Positions 4,330-27,549 of a stretch of 64,000 nt of DNA are shown here, piece after piece. Origin of the DNA: Fodinisporobacter ferrooxydans (GTDB lineage Bacteria > Bacillota > Bacilli > Tumebacillales > MYW30-H2); the NCBI RefSeq assembly GCF_022818495.1, contig NZ_CP089291.1, positions 1,971,001-2,035,000 of the forward strand, in the 5' to 3' direction. Below the pieces are notes generated by a model. That model saw only the letters and a program-made list of their open reading frames with translations, searched no databases and was not told the origin of the DNA. The stretch's first letter is position 1; every line of letters starts with the position of its first letter. The position numbers and the translations under genes are program-made.

Positions 4330-5694
4330 GTGAAAGAAGATTGTTATGATCTGATCATACGCAACGGTCAGATTGTCACCGAAGAAGGAATATTTCAAGG
4401 AGACATCGCCGTACACGAGCAAAGAATCGTTAAAATTGGATTTATTTCGACGGAGAAAAAAGCCAAGAAAGAAATCGATGCTGTCGGTCTGCACGTTTTT
4501 CCGGGTTTGATCGATACTCATGTGCATTTCAATGAACCCGGCCGGACTGAATGGGAAGGGTTGGCCACAGGCAGCCAAAGTTTGGCGGCAGGTGGAGTGA
4601 CAACTTTCTTTGATATGCCCCTTAACAGCAGTCCTCCAACTACAACAGCACAAGGTTTTGAACGAAAAAAACAAGCAGCAGAGCAAAGTTCCATTCTTGA
4701 TTATGGCCTTTGGGGAGGGCTGGTTCCGGGAAATCTGGACTCCCTGGAACATCTCAAGAAACTGGGAGTCATCGGATTCAAAGGTTTTATGTCCAATAGC
4801 GGCATCGATGAGTTCCTTCATGTAGACGACTCTACATTATTTAAAGGGATGCAAAAAATTGCCGGGCTTGGTTCCATCCTGGCTCTCCATGCCGAAAGCG
4901 ATGTCATTACAAATCAACTCGCGGATTGGTATAAAGCACAAGGGCGCCGGACTGCACGGGATTATGCGGCTTCGCGTCCTGTTTTATCGGAAATCGAAGC
5001 TGTCGGCAGGGCAGCGTCCTATGCGGAAATTACAGGATGTAAATTGCATATCGTACATGCAAGCAGTGGCGAGGTCGTGAAACGGATCAGCGAAGCAAAA
5101 CAAAGAGGGGTCGATATAACTGTGGAAACTTGCCCCCATTACCTGGCTTTCACCACCCCGGATCTGGAACGGCTGGGAGGGGTGGCAAAATGCGCACCGC
5201 CTCTGCGGGAACAGGAGCATGTGGAATCGCTTTGGGAAGCTTTGAAATCCGGTGAAATCGATAGTATCGGTTCGGATCATTCCCCCTCTCCTCCTGCTAT
5301 GAAAGTGGCTTCAGATAATGATGATTTTTTCAGTTTGTGGGGCGGTATCTCGGGAGCGCAGACGACATTGAACGTGATGCTTGAGGAAGGGTATTGGCGG
5401 CGCAACCTTCCTTTGGAAGTCATTGCACGAGTAACTGCGGCCAATCCGGCCAAACGGTTTGGTCTGTATCCGCGGAAAGGTACGATTGCCGTTGGAAGTG
5501 ATGCTGATCTGGCGTTGGTCGATTTGCAATCTTCCTTTGTCCTGAAGGAAACGGATCTTTTCTATCGGCATCGACAGAGTCCGTATATAGGGAAGACGTT
5601 CCGGGGGATGGTTATGTTTACAATTCTTCACGGAAGAGTTGTTTTTCAAAAGGGAGAAGGGATCGACAACAACTTTTTTGGCCAGATGGTATAG
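4330..5694 (+). CDS. allB: allantoinase (copy 2, paralogue)
   Basis: A second 454-residue cyclic amidohydrolase, clearly related to the preceding gene but diverged through most of its length. All metal ligands are kept: H64, H66 (DTHVHFNEPGRTEWEG), K151 (GFKGFMSNSG), H187, H243 and D316 (GSDHSPSPP). GTG start at 4330 follows GGGGGGATTGAC. Duplicate allantoinases could differ in stereochemistry ((R) versus (S) allantoin), substrate range or expression; the sequence alone cannot tell. It is followed by a bidirectional terminator facing the convergent pucG gene. Confidence 0.9.
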   Translation: MKEDCYDLIIRNGQIVTEEGIFQGDIAVHEQRIVKIGFISTEKKAKKEIDAVGLHVFPGLIDTHVHFNEPGRTEWEGLATGSQSLAAGGVTTFFDMPLNSSPPTTTAQGFERKKQAAEQSSILDYGLWGGLVPGNLDSLEHLKKLGVIGFKGFMSNSGIDEFLHVDDSTLFKGMQKIAGLGSILALHAESDVITNQLADWYKAQGRRTARDYAASRPVLSEIEAVGRAASYAEITGCKLHIVHASSGEVVKRISEAKQRGVDITVETCPHYLAFTTPDLERLGGVAKCAPPLREQEHVESLWEALKSGEIDSIGSDHSPSPPAMKVASDNDDFFSLWGGISGAQTTLNVMLEEGYWRRNLPLEVIARVTAANPAKRFGLYPRKGTIAVGSDADLALVDLQSSFVLKETDLFYRHRQSPYIGKTFRGMVMFTILHGRVVFQKGEGIDNNFFGQMV

Positions 5695-21910: not shown

Positions 21911-22411
21911 AATTGGAATTTACGTAGACCCTTCCTTTCACTTAAAAGCAAGTATATCATGAAACTTGACAGGTTGCATTCCGACTTTTCCACCGATGTC
22001 CGCGCCTTGACAGGATGTTCAATAAAGGGTAAAATCCTTTTTGTAAATCATTACCCGCGATATCATAAATGTTGAAAATAAAGTTCGGATCGTTGCAAAT
22101 AAAGGTGAATACAAACAAAGCTGAATACAAACTGAATATCCTTAGGTAGACTACTCAAAAAACCGATTTTGGTTAGTTGACAGTAAACCGACAATTTTCA
22201 GAATTTAATGGTTTTCACAATGGCCGTTAAATTTTGGACTTGTCGGTTTTTTTGTTGGGAAAATACGAGAGCAACACAATAAAAGGAAAAACACAGAAGA
22301 AAAAAGCCAAATGAAAGCAATTCGTGTTGCCAACTTGTTTTACATTGCTTTCCGTATTGGATCAAAAATTTTAGCAGTTGCGGGTATATCCTTTTGATGG
22401 AGGGGTGCTGG
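21911..22411. other. AT-rich gap upstream of the dab operon
   Basis: No gene was found in these 500 bases. They include the MITE-end-like sequence at 22014 and a strong hairpin at 22185-22253. TTGACA at 22177-22182 is a -35-like hexamer, but no well-spaced -10 follows. Confidence 0.45.
22185..22253 (+). terminator. long hairpin with T tract upstream of dabB
   Basis: Outer arms AAACCGACAA (22185-22194) and TTGTCGGTTT (22240-22249) pair perfectly; inner arms AATTTAATGG and CCGTTAAATT pair with one mismatch. The downstream arm runs into seven T residues. No gene precedes it on the plus strand for 450 bases, so it is either the terminator of a small RNA or an attenuator of the dabBA operon. Confidence 0.6.
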
Positions 22412-23944
22412 ATGTTCATTCCGTTGAATTTTTTGTTGCTGCCGGCAGCGTTTTTTGTGTCGCTAGCGGTTTGTGCGTTTAGCGCGCTGATCCTGTTGCA
22501 TCCACGTATTTCTTTGAGTTTTGTTCGCATTCATGTCGGTCTATGCGGGCTGCCTCCGCTGGTTGCCCTCTTGTCTCTTGTCACGAACCATGGGAATGGG
22601 ATGTTTGGCCCATGGCGCTTTGATCCCCTTGCATGGCTGACGGTTTTGTTTGTCCTTACAATCGGTTTGATCGTGCAGCGCTATTCCGTACGCTATTTGC
22701 TTGGCGACCGCCATTATCGAAAATACTTTGCGCTCTTGACACTTACCACGGGTGCCGTTTCAGTTGCCTGGTCAAGCAATGATCTTCGCCTTCTGTTGGC
22801 GTGCTGGGGTGCTACACTTCTGGGGCTGACATTGCTCATAGGGTTAAATCGAGAGTGGCAAGTGGCCAGAACCGCGGCCGTCCTTTCTGGCCGACTGTAT
22901 GCACTTAGCTGGCTGGTTTTGTTGACGGCGCTAACCTGGCTTGCGCAAGTCACGGGACATTGGCAGTTATCCCTTGTGTTTGCCAAAGGCGGACTGGCGC
23001 ATTTGGGTTCATGGGAGAGAACCGGCATATGCCTGCTATTGATCGTTGCTGTTGCGATTCCGGCGGCACAATGGCCTTTCCAACGCTGGTTGCTGGACTC
23101 TGTAGTTGCCCCAACGCCCGTCTCCGCAGTGATGCATGCGGGTTTGGTGAATGCCGGCGGAATTCTTCTGACGCGTTTCGCGCCGCTTTTTAACGGCGGT
23201 TTGTCCCAGGTGTTTTTGATGGTTCTCTCTGGTATTTCGGTCTTGCTGGGGACTGGAATTATTTTGGTCCAAGTCGACTATAAACGACAGTTGGTAGGCT
23301 CCACGATTGCACAGATGGGATTTATGCTGATTCAGTGTGCATTAGGCGCTTATTTGGCGGCTATTATTCATGCCGTGTTGCACGGTCTGTTCAAATCCGC
23401 TCTTTTCTTACAGGCTGGCTCAGCCATACATCACAACCAGCCAAAGATGGGCGCGACACCGCTCTCGTCATTTTTATGGATCATGACGGGCGGTGTTCCG
23501 GGTCTTTTAGCGGGGATTGGTTTTTGGTCAATTGACAATGGAGGGGTTTATCAATGGATTAGCGCTCTAATCTTGGTGGGATCTGTGTGGTTTGCCTGGA
23601 TACAACTCGTGGCTTTTGGTTACGGGCGCATCGGGCGGATTGCGGGAATTTCCCTATTGGCTGGAGCGGCAATCGTATTCGGCATCGTCCATGACGCTTT
23701 TTACGGGTTGTTGCACGAAACCGTCCGGCAAGGAATCGAACCACCCACATCAGCAGTCGTTTTGGTTCTTTTCTTATTGTTGTCAAGCGGAGCGATAGGT
23801 GTTTGGGTATCCCGCCGCCATTCTGCCCCTTTTGCCGTACTCTACTTGTGGCTTGTCCGATTGGGCGAGACCCATCGCGATTTGGTCGAAAGTCATCCGA
23901 AGCATCTTGGATTCAGTCTGTCTCAAGGAGGGAGCAAGCGATGA
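22412..23944 (+). CDS. dabB: DabB/MpsA, NuoL-like membrane subunit of DIC transporter
   Basis: A 510-residue polytopic membrane protein of the proton-translocating NADH-quinone oxidoreductase/MrpA antiporter family (NuoL-like). The conserved PTPVSAVMHAGLVNAGGILL motif (about 233-252) and the later HAVLHGLFKSALFLQAGS are seen. With DabA it forms the energy-coupled CO2/bicarbonate accumulation system known as DAB or MpsAB. ATG 22412 was chosen because GGAGGGG ends 6 bases before it; an upstream ATG at 22397 overlaps that site. The stop overlaps the dabA start (ATGA). Confidence 0.92.
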   Translation: MFIPLNFLLLPAAFFVSLAVCAFSALILLHPRISLSFVRIHVGLCGLPPLVALLSLVTNHGNGMFGPWRFDPLAWLTVLFVLTIGLIVQRYSVRYLLGDRHYRKYFALLTLTTGAVSVAWSSNDLRLLLACWGATLLGLTLLIGLNREWQVARTAAVLSGRLYALSWLVLLTALTWLAQVTGHWQLSLVFAKGGLAHLGSWERTGICLLLIVAVAIPAAQWPFQRWLLDSVVAPTPVSAVMHAGLVNAGGILLTRFAPLFNGGLSQVFLMVLSGISVLLGTGIILVQVDYKRQLVGSTIAQMGFMLIQCALGAYLAAIIHAVLHGLFKSALFLQAGSAIHHNQPKMGATPLSSFLWIMTGGVPGLLAGIGFWSIDNGGVYQWISALILVGSVWFAWIQLVAFGYGRIGRIAGISLLAGAAIVFGIVHDAFYGLLHETVRQGIEPPTSAVVLVLFLLLSSGAIGVWVSRRHSAPFAVLYLWLVRLGETHRDLVESHPKHLGFSLSQGGSKR

Positions 23945-26610
23945 ATGGAACGTTGACATTACCCGATCAATCCGAATTGCAAAAGGAAATTTTGCCGTCT
24001 GATTCCTTTCGTCTTGACATTGACCTTAATCCTGAACCTGATCGGAATTCCGGTCTTGATACTGGCGAGTTGGTGAAGGCCGCCAGCCGAGTCATCGCAC
24101 CGCTTGGACCGATTGCCACGTTTGCGGCGCGCCACCCTTGGCAGGGACTGGAAGAACAGTCATTTGAACAGGCGGCTCGCTTTCTCAAAGAGATTCGTGG
24201 CGTGGATCTGTATCCGAGCGTTTCCATGTTGAAGGCTGCGAAGAATCGGGGCGAGATCGATCCGGATATTCTGGAAAAAGGATTGCAACATTGGCTTGAT
24301 TTGCAGCCTCTTGATTTGCCAAGGGAGGTTGCGGAGGGATTTTGCCGGGCTGCACTGCAACTGGATGAGTTGCCGCCCCGTCTGTCGGAAGCTACTGAGT
24401 TGAAGAGTATCGCAGAGAAACTGAGTGGATTGAAATGGCAGATAAACGAGAAGCGTCCAATCCAGACATGGAGCATGCGTTTGGAAAGGCGAGTCGGCGA
24501 GAGGGTGGCCCAAGATCTTGATCGCCACGTAATCAAATGGTGCAAGTTGTTCTTGGATCGATCCCAGGCGGCCTGGTCGCTGCCAAATCGCGAGGAAGGT
24601 TTCTATCGCGCCTGGCGCCGGCTTGTTCCCTACGACCCGGCACTTCGTCGTTCGCTGCGCCGGCGATTAAAAGATTGGCCGCAAGAGGCAGATGCCGCTC
24701 TAAAAGAAGCGTTGTCGGCACTTGAAATCCCGCAGGAGCAGATTCAAAGCTATCTTGAGGCGCATTTGCTTTCCTTGCCGGGGTGGGCGGGAATGATGCT
24801 TTGGCACTCGCAACATTCGGCTCAGGAACATTTCCTTCTAACAGAATATTTGGCTGTCCGGATTTCCATGGAGTGGGTCTTGATTCAACCGTATCTGCCC
24901 TTGTCAGAGCAAAAATCTGAGGATACGCCGCATTTGGTTCCATTGGTTGCGGCGTGGACCCATTGGGGTGACATGCCGATCGAAGCTTGGTCGCAGCTAT
25001 CTTCATCCGAACAAAAAGGACGTTTGGCTCTCGCGCATCGGTTTGATGACTCCCTCCGCAAACGCCTCTGGCTGGAAGCCTGGGAGCAAACATACGAAGA
25101 GCGATTAAAAGAGATGATCACGTCAAAACAGCTTGTATCTGATGAGGGAAAGCATGTGTTGGCGCAATTTGCATTTTGTATTGATGTGCGTTCCGAACCC
25201 TTTCGCCGCAAGCTTGAAGAAGCCGGTCCTTTTGAAACGTATGGAGTTGCCGGCTTTTTCGGATTGCCGATCGAGATACGTGAACTTGGCGGCGAACATG
25301 GGCATCCCTCCTTGCCGGTTATGCTTAAACCGCAGCACCAAGTAAATGAGTCTTCTTCCGAGTTTCAATTCATACAATATCAACAACGTCGACAGGCAGT
25401 ACATGCAATCAATCGTACGTTTCAGTCGATGAAACAAAATCTGCCGACCAGCTTATTGCTGCCGGAGGTAAGCGGCCCATGGCTTAGCTTGCAAATGTTG
25501 GTGCGCAGCTTTTTTCCGCGTGGCGGAGGGCGGGTTTTCCGCCGGATCCGGCAAGCATGGCTGCGTAAACCGGCTACGGAACTCTCGCTGGACCGCGTGT
25601 GTACGGAAAAGGAATTGCCGATCGGCTTTTCTGAAGACGAGAAAGTGCGCTATGTACGACAAGCCCTGAAAATGATGGGACTGACTGATCATTTTGCTCC
25701 ATTCGTGGTGATTTGCGGGCATGGAAGCCACAGCACCAACAATCCCTATGCCGCCGCATTGGACTGTGGCGCTTGCGGAGGAGTGTCGGGCGCTTTTAAC
25801 GCCCGGGTCCTGGCAACTTTGTGCAACCTTCCAAAGGTAAGAAAGACTCTTGCAAAAGAAGGAATCTCCATTCCGGAAGACACGGTTTTCGCGGCGGCCG
25901 AGCATATAACGACAGGGAATGAATTGCGTTGGCTGTATGTGCCCAAACTGTCCGATGCGGCTCAAGAAGCATTTGACCGAATCCAGGCCGTGTTGCCAAA
26001 AGTTCGTTATAATGTAAACGAAGAGCAATTGATGAAATTGCCCCGTCTCGGTTCCCGTTTTGAAAAACCGGAGACGGAGATGCAACGCCTGGCGGAAGAT
26101 TGGAGCGAGGTGCGTCCGGAATGGGGGCTGGCGCGTAACGCTGCATGTATCATTGGTGACCGCCGGCTTACAAAGGATTGCAATTTGGACGGGAGAGCCT
26201 TTCTGCACAACTATGACTGGTGGAAGGATCATGACGGGACTTTGCTTGCCGGCATTATCGCAGGGCCGGCAACGGTGGCCCAATGGATAAACCTGCAGTA
26301 TTACGCATCGACCGTTGCGCCGAATTATTATGGCAGCGGGAATAAAGCTACCCAAACCATTACTGCCGGTATCGGCGTCATGCAGGGAAACGCAAGTGAT
26401 TTGCTGGCCGGACTTCCCTGGCAGTCCGTCATGAAATCGGATCAAGAGGCGTATCATGCTCCGTTGCGGTTGCTGGTGCTCATCGAAGCGCCACGGGAGT
26501 ATGTGAAACGATTGTTAAATCAGGATCCCTCGTTCCGCCAAAAAGTTCAAAACGGATGGATTCGGCTTGCGACCATTGATCCTGAAGGATACTGGGAGAG
26601 TTGGTCATAA
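23941..26610 (+). CDS. dabA: DabA/MpsB, carbonic-anhydrase-like subunit of DIC transporter
   Basis: An 889-residue UPF0753/DUF2309 protein. The beta-carbonic-anhydrase-like zinc site is intact: C413 and D415 (FAFCIDVRSEP), H594 (ICGHGSHSTNN) and C609 (ALDCGACGG). The spacing of 2 and 15 residues equals that of the characterised DabA site. It is thought to convert CO2 to bicarbonate in the cytoplasm in a vectorial reaction driven through DabB. ATG 23941 overlaps the dabB stop; an open frame continues upstream inside dabB but lacks an own ribosome binding site, while GGAGGGAGC lies just before 23941. Confidence 0.94.
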   Translation: MNGTLTLPDQSELQKEILPSDSFRLDIDLNPEPDRNSGLDTGELVKAASRVIAPLGPIATFAARHPWQGLEEQSFEQAARFLKEIRGVDLYPSVSMLKAAKNRGEIDPDILEKGLQHWLDLQPLDLPREVAEGFCRAALQLDELPPRLSEATELKSIAEKLSGLKWQINEKRPIQTWSMRLERRVGERVAQDLDRHVIKWCKLFLDRSQAAWSLPNREEGFYRAWRRLVPYDPALRRSLRRRLKDWPQEADAALKEALSALEIPQEQIQSYLEAHLLSLPGWAGMMLWHSQHSAQEHFLLTEYLAVRISMEWVLIQPYLPLSEQKSEDTPHLVPLVAAWTHWGDMPIEAWSQLSSSEQKGRLALAHRFDDSLRKRLWLEAWEQTYEERLKEMITSKQLVSDEGKHVLAQFAFCIDVRSEPFRRKLEEAGPFETYGVAGFFGLPIEIRELGGEHGHPSLPVMLKPQHQVNESSSEFQFIQYQQRRQAVHAINRTFQSMKQNLPTSLLLPEVSGPWLSLQMLVRSFFPRGGGRVFRRIRQAWLRKPATELSLDRVCTEKELPIGFSEDEKVRYVRQALKMMGLTDHFAPFVVICGHGSHSTNNPYAAALDCGACGGVSGAFNARVLATLCNLPKVRKTLAKEGISIPEDTVFAAAEHITTGNELRWLYVPKLSDAAQEAFDRIQAVLPKVRYNVNEEQLMKLPRLGSRFEKPETEMQRLAEDWSEVRPEWGLARNAACIIGDRRLTKDCNLDGRAFLHNYDWWKDHDGTLLAGIIAGPATVAQWINLQYYASTVAPNYYGSGNKATQTITAGIGVMQGNASDLLAGLPWQSVMKSDQEAYHAPLRLLVLIEAPREYVKRLLNQDPSFRQKVQNGWIRLATIDPEGYWESWS

Positions 26611-27022: not shown

Positions 27023-27039
27023 AATGAGGAGGTAAGTTG

Positions 27040-27549
27040 ATGGATTCCGATGAAAACAAAAAAGTGCTGTTTGTGATCGGAATGGATCACGATCCGGAAC
27101 AATTCTTGCGGCAAGTGACCCATATTCATTCAGAAAACATCTTGCTCTTGCAAATTTACGGACCAGAGATTTCTCAATCCTTTAGTGACCTCATGCGAGA
27201 CATCATCATTGCTGTTTATCAGGAAAATGCCGAGGAAATTTTTGTTGTCGGCACGGCAGATGATCGAAAAAAACCGGTCGATGCACAAGATTTGCTCAAT
27301 AAAATATTTGAGAACGAAGGATTACAGGAGAACATACAGACAGTGGAGTATTTGTTTAAGAATTGCACGCCGGAATTCCCTGGCGTTACTCTGAGCGAAT
27401 GGCTGGAGGGAAGCAAAACTTCAACCGAGGGCATACGGAAAAGTGTCGAAATCATTCGTCATCATCCGCTGATGCCGTCTTATGTTCGGGTTCAGGGATT
27501 ACTAATGAACAAGGAGAATGGACAGCTATCAGAAATCGGCGTTTGCTAA
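27040..27549 (+). CDS. beta-carbonic-anhydrase-like protein without zinc ligands
   Basis: A 169-residue protein whose order of elements matches beta-carbonic anhydrase. LMRDIIIAVYQENAEEIFVV replaces the RSL...VxxIxVxGH strand-helix, and SVEIIRHHPLMPSYVRVQGL plus MNKENGQLSEI match the C-terminal xHPLxPxxVxVxGxxxxxxTGxL block. The zinc ligands are gone: the CxDSR motif reads GMDHD and HxxC reads TADD. It is therefore probably not a classical anhydrase and may be a regulatory or scaffold partner of DabAB. ATG 27040 is preceded by GAGGAGGT; TTG 27037 is an alternative. It is the last gene of the dab operon. Confidence 0.65.
   Translation: MDSDENKKVLFVIGMDHDPEQFLRQVTHIHSENILLLQIYGPEISQSFSDLMRDIIIAVYQENAEEIFVVGTADDRKKPVDAQDLLNKIFENEGLQENIQTVEYLFKNCTPEFPGVTLSEWLEGSKTSTEGIRKSVEIIRHHPLMPSYVRVQGLLMNKENGQLSEIGVC

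Follow-up and report, generated by a model that had tools for sequence, protein, structure and literature searches.

The catalytic core of DabA consists of two beta-carbonic anhydrase (beta-CA)-like domains, and how Dab-type pumps are controlled against futile CO2/bicarbonate cycling is a question that the DAB2 structure paper leaves open (PMC13144422). In Staphylococcus aureus, an mpsC deletion left growth unaffected, and an E. coli CA mutant was complemented by mpsAB on its own (PMC6689103). Transport can therefore proceed without the accessory proteins. Directly after MpsAB, a putative CA was described in S. sciuri, B. anthracis and B. subtilis; the zinc-ligand alignment of the same study covered two B. 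subtilis CAs whose genes lie elsewhere and did not include YbcF (PMC8552792). YbcF of B. subtilis is regarded as a putative carbonic anhydrase homologue, and calcite formation was affected only very mildly in ybcF mutants, with or without mutations in the CA genes (PMC5515261). Among cyanobacteria, SbtB binds the transporter SbtA and is its presumed inhibitor (PMC10117731).

We analyzed a window of 64,000 nucleotides from Fodinisporobacter ferrooxydans (contig NZ_CP089291.1, positions 1,971,001 to 2,035,000), in which the genes dabB, dabA, mpsC and ORF 27040-27549 follow each other in this order on one strand (Table 1). The start of dabA overlaps the stop of dabB by 4 bases, and 17 bp separate the stop of mpsC from the start of ORF 27040-27549. 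Promoter and terminator scans gave no more sites than shuffled sequences. A preliminary description of this DNA had noted that such a gene does not seem to be a regular member of the dab operons described so far, a view at odds with the putative CA reported beside MpsAB (PMC8552792) and with YbcF (also in PMC5515261).

Table 1. Features of the dabAB locus in the analyzed window
Feature	Position	Strand	Remarks
dabB/mpsA, NuoL/Mrp-like membrane subunit	22394..23944	+	Proton_antipo_M 4.5e-51, NF006373 677.8 bits; exact start uncertain
dabA/mpsB	23941..26610	+	PF10070 4.7e-264, 879 bits
mpsC, 121 aa	26657..27022	+	PF10057 (formerly DUF2294) 1.8e-37, 128 bits
Shine-Dalgarno GAGGAGGT	27026..27033	+	6 bases 5' of ATG 27040; direct reading
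Zinc-less beta-CA relative, 169 aa	27040..27549	+	ATG start
G14-M15-D16-H17-D18, in place of the beta-CA C-x-D-x-R motif	27079..27093	+	
T72-A73-D74-D75, in place of the H-x-x-C zinc motif	27253..27264	+	
L105-F113 (LFKNCTPEF), nine residues	27352..27378	+	

The protein encoded by ORF 27040-27549 matched no Pfam or NCBIfam model above its cut-off. PF00484 (Pro_CA) did not match it, and the best relative shown reached 21.8 bits against a gathering cut-off of 25.7. The resemblance to beta-CA was nevertheless far beyond chance by direct search, family profile and predicted fold. The phmmer search detected the beta-CA 6y04 at an E value of 5.8e-7, and a profile of 13 relatives matched 6y04 at 3.1e-16 over positions 6-166, 1g5c at 2.1e-10 and the CS2 hydrolase 3ten at 1.4e-7. 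An AF2 model was calculated from an alignment of eight sequences (pLDDT 73, pTM 0.67). The Foldseek search with this model gave beta-CAs as the best matches (6y04 at 4.7e-8), and the VIA comparison with 6y04 gave a Z score of 15.2 and an rmsd of 4.0 over 144 residues. Confidence in the model is medium, with the loop 75-81 by the former H-x-x-C site scoring below 50. The assignment of a beta-CA fold is safe, while the geometry of the site in the model is not. The relationship to beta-CA assumed in the preliminary description was borne out by both structure prediction and family profile.

All three metal ligands were replaced in this protein (C to G14, H to T72 and C to D75), and the motifs GMDHD for CxDSR and TADD for HxxC were present as first described. 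The claim that all zinc-binding positions had been replaced applied to these ligands and did not extend to the catalytic Asp/Arg dyad, of which the Asp was kept as D16 and the Arg had become D18. The relatives had E, N, S or K at position 16, and the family as a whole does not conserve the dyad. In 15 dab- or sbtA-linked proteins including that of the window, all three zinc ligands were missing, while all five residues were present in 25 of 25 aligned CAs. The five residues were likewise kept in 18 of 18 CA rows, among them one beside SbtA and one from a locus convergent to SbtA, and in 17 of 17 zinc-type rows, some of which were repeated. The zinc site was absent from each of the 20 transporter-linked relatives compared. 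Since the loss runs through the whole family, an oddity of one genome was rejected as its explanation.

When 14 linked proteins were compared position by position with 35 CAs, the linked proteins proved to have lost the catalytic-loop positions C, T, R, A, H, C, G and M. The catalytic C, R, H and C and their neighbours were retained in fewer than 20% of the relatives, while G41, R53, Y60, W121 and H142-P-L-x-P146 were retained in more than 90%. A repurposed pseudoenzyme shows just this combination of a lost site and a kept core. The LFKNCTPEF stretch occurred in none of the 35 zinc-bearing CAs and was conserved in most DabAB-linked relatives.

The protein might still be an enzyme, either a metal-independent or differently liganded CA or a catalyst of another reaction such as CS2 or COS hydrolysis. 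The retained fold, the match to CS2 hydrolase 3ten and the often acidic residue at position 16 would agree with this. However, no Cys, His, Asp or Glu was conserved at the lost ligand positions across the family, so that an alternative metal site was rejected and the replacement ligands considered in the preliminary description were not found at the former site. In addition, known CS2 and COS hydrolases retain their zinc ligands. A remaining enzymatic activity is thus very improbable.

A separate intact CA is encoded in the window's genome (C1:4566771, L047); therefore, the operon does not need ORF 27040-27549 as its CA, and a role as a backup CA for the cell was considered unlikely. At least one further CA match was present in nearly all genomes with the zinc-less gene, with ligands read in part. 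DabA of the window has its own intact beta-CA-like site (C413, D415, R417, H594 and C609), invariant in 66 homologues, and the complete anhydrase-like site noted for it earlier (C413, D415, H594, C609) was thus confirmed. Because DabA already carries a full site, a second catalytic CA would not be needed, and it would presumably work against one-way hydration.

Close relatives of the zinc-less gene were identified in Cohnella thermotolerans, Paenibacillus naphthalenovorans, three Aneurinibacillus and two Neobacillus, all arranged as dabB-dabA-mpsC-zinc-less gene. The family profile gave 13 matches above 150 bits in 398 Bacilli genomes, followed by a gap down to 127 bits, where the canonical CAs begin. 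As the profile was built from linked members it could miss unlinked distant ones, but the score gap argues against many of these. All 13 strong matches adjoined a carbon transporter and mpsC, and none had the zinc site. Conservation beside dabA was found for ten of them (G000, G122, G181, G191, G162, G237, G041, G301, G151 and G333), and the other three were located beside sbtA instead (G015, G056 and G020, the gene of G020 containing stop codons). The gene between mpsC and the zinc-less gene in G015 and G020 encodes SbtA (PF05982, 1.1e-112 and 2.5e-111, respectively). The search with SbtA detected four further, weaker zinc-less CA-like proteins directly after sbtA, in G123, G254, G171 and G194; the protein of G194 is very divergent and its placement is unsure. 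Outside Bacilli, the phylum sample contained no family members at E 1e-20, and the matches read there were intact CAs.

Many dabAB operons lack the zinc-less gene, and since intact CAs also lie near sbtA in G152 and G343 (on the other strand in G343), the CA-type neighbour is not always zinc-less. One independent beta-CA with C to F and H to R replacements and the other residues kept was detected in G090 (C130, L045 7596-8273), where no carbon transporter adjoins it and the genome has a second CA match. It was the sole exception among the transporter-unlinked CAs read, and it grouped with the zinc enzymes in the tree. In the sbtA-type operon of G015, the next gene after the zinc-less one encodes a DUF6671 protein (L041 6932-7804; PF20376, 5.6e-54).

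It could be supposed that the dead beta-CA is a docking or assembly factor specific for DabA, pairing with one of the DabA beta-CA-like domains in mimicry of a beta-CA dimer and helping to assemble or gate DabA. The presence of two such domains in the DabA core (PMC13144422) would agree with this, most zinc-less copies belong to dabAB operons, and an LFKNCxPEF insertion is peculiar to the DabAB-linked clade. However, the same family occurs directly after sbtA in G015, G020, G056, G123, G254, G171 and G194, all genomes in which the DabA search found nothing. To our knowledge, SbtA has no CA-like domain. A DabA-specific factor is therefore rather unlikely, and the proposal of the preliminary description that the protein may control DabA was too narrow and is widened here to carbon transporters in general.

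A total of 57 sequences were used for the phylogenetic tree. The protein of ORF 27040-27549 grouped with the transporter-linked zinc-less proteins, apart from the zinc-bearing CAs. Nineteen linked zinc-less proteins fell on one side at 96/82, and all 20 including that of G194 did so at 90/84. A single loss of the zinc site would be the simplest reading of this tree for the linked family. Within the family, the sbtA-linked copy of G015 was sister to the dabAB-linked copy of G301 (100/97); therefore, the partner transporter changed at least once.

The dN/dS of the zinc-less gene was 0.21 for the Neobacillus pair and also for the window and Cohnella, the latter comparison being near saturation, and 0.28 for G162 and G237; values from very close pairs were uninformative. 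Judged by these ratios, the gene is under purifying selection. The plasmid search detected one zinc-less member on the mobilizable plasmid NZ_CP066063.1 of Staphylococcus pettenkoferi. Here dabB-dabA-zinc-less gene-mpsC, the third gene being annotated as "hypothetical protein", is flanked by two IS6-family transposases (L137 946-7558). This segment resembles a transposon-like carbon-uptake cassette that may be transferred as a unit, and nearly identical copies were found in G151 and G333.

Further signs of exchange were observed. Between Aneurinibacillus L035 and L036/L037, dS was 0.04 for the zinc-less gene and 0.21-0.24 for the adjacent mpsC, which suggests that the zinc-less gene alone may have been exchanged recently. 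The loci of Cohnella thermotolerans and Paenibacillus naphthalenovorans (L033 and L034) were nearly identical (dS 0.02 for the zinc-less gene and 0.01 for mpsC), suggesting a recent transfer of the operon between these genera.

Decayed genes were also found. The zinc-less copy of G020 contains stop codons (L040 9240-9800), and only a short remnant is left after mpsC in G244 (L099 5478-5675). In G006, dabB-dabA-mpsC, arranged as in the window, is followed by a canonical CA gene that is frameshifted but in which CMDTR and HHDC can still be read (L088 9459-10218); this gene adjoins an apparent transposase fragment. The zinc-less gene might accordingly be viewed as a functionless, decaying relic of an operon-borne CA, with the decayed copies in G020 and G244, the absence of the gene from most dabAB operons and the broken CA of G006 as signs of such a process. 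However, the gene is open and of full length in many genera, purifying selection acts on it, the catalytic residues were lost while the core was kept, a plasmid cassette carries it and its place beside two kinds of transporter is consistent. A relic is thus improbable.

The mpsC gene was present at every zinc-less locus listed. It adjoined dabAB in 51 of 58 and sbtA in 24 of 30 Bacilli loci (L079-L136 and L169-L198), and this adjacency across Bacilli contradicts the published claim that mpsC accompanies mpsAB only in staphylococci. A PII/SbtB-like nature of MpsC was considered; its AF2 model (pLDDT 76) had no clear match to any fold family, with a best VIA Z score of 7.2 and no Foldseek match below 1e-3. 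The MpsC sequence matched the archaeal ribosome dimerizing factor at an E value of 0.36, which is not significant. The zinc-less protein is constantly accompanied by MpsC rather than by DabA. MpsC and the zinc-less protein therefore most likely form the functional unit, which would attach to the pump in use in a given lineage.

Since a dead CA accompanies two unrelated pumps, DabAB and SbtA, together with MpsC, ORF 27040-27549 probably encodes a catalytically dead beta-CA with a non-enzymatic role, accessory or regulatory, in the uptake of inorganic carbon. What we infer about its partner, ligand and direction of control is as follows. The protein would retain the core of a beta-CA, probably in dimeric form, and would bind the transporter or MpsC at the cytoplasmic face. 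There it might tune uptake to the CO2/bicarbonate state, or aid substrate or proton exchange at the membrane, and it would not itself hydrate CO2. More tentatively, MpsC and the dead beta-CA could form a transporter-independent pair for carbon sensing or gating in Bacilli, moving between the unrelated DabAB and SbtA as a counterpart of cyanobacterial SbtB, with the former CO2 pocket reused as a CO2/bicarbonate sensor.

Instead of acting on the pump, a cytoplasmic sensor could act on operon expression. The zinc-less gene is always co-encoded with a pump, and in S. aureus mpsA expression is reported to fall at 5% CO2, by a route that is not named (PMC6689103). However, the protein is a single beta-CA domain with no DNA- or RNA-binding domain, and Rfam elements were absent from the operon region, which makes an effect through expression scarcely probable.

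In the literature searched, chiefly the main text of open-access papers, neither the missing zinc site nor the link to SbtA was mentioned. The neighbour gene was thus known and called a CA, and what appears to be new is a zinc-less family common to DabAB and SbtA loci. The dead CA recurring with MpsC beside both pumps offers a testable candidate for the control of Dab-type pumps. The annotation "carbonic anhydrase" is probably wrong for at least some genes beside MpsAB, those of the YbcF type, which matters for tallies of genomes that have CA together with MpsAB and for the choice of genes in biomineralization work.

The G237 locus (L086) allows a comparison with B. subtilis. Its order is glmM-glmS-dabB-dabA-zinc-less gene-96 aa-mpsC-ArsR-MFS, with the flanking names given from reading of the sequences, and the protein of 96 aa between the zinc-less gene and mpsC (5330-5620) has no assignment. 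This order is close to that of B. subtilis, which we take to be ndhF-ybcC-ybcF-ybcH-ybcI-ybzH-ybcL, and the 96-aa protein presumably stands at the place of ybcH. YbcF, from the ybcC-ybcF-ybcH-ybcI operon, is by gene order the likely orthologue of the zinc-less protein of this locus. YbcF has been called a CA in publications, whereas the protein of L086 lacks the entire zinc site.

With beta-CAs (PF00484; TvaCA1 6y04, Cab 1g5c) the protein of ORF 27040-27549 shares the fold, the HPLxP core motif and a conserved Trp and Arg, but it differs in having neither the Cys-His-Cys ligands nor the Asp/Arg dyad and in scoring below the Pfam cut-off. The beta-CA-like domains of DabA have the same fold and belong to the same operon, but they kept the zinc site in 66 of 66 homologues and have an extra helical domain. 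SbtB, the PII-like regulator of cyanobacterial SbtA, is a small soluble SbtA binder (PMC10117731) and may be a functional analogue of the zinc-less protein. However, its fold is a ferredoxin-like trimer unrelated to the predicted beta-CA fold, no nucleotide site is known in the zinc-less family, and this family is also found at dabAB loci. The mammalian CARP VIII, X and XI are of the alpha-class fold, occur in animals and act on another transporter, so they serve as an analogy only; like the protein proposed here, they are catalytically dead CAs, and they enhance the membrane transporter MCT1 without catalysis (PMC6609565).
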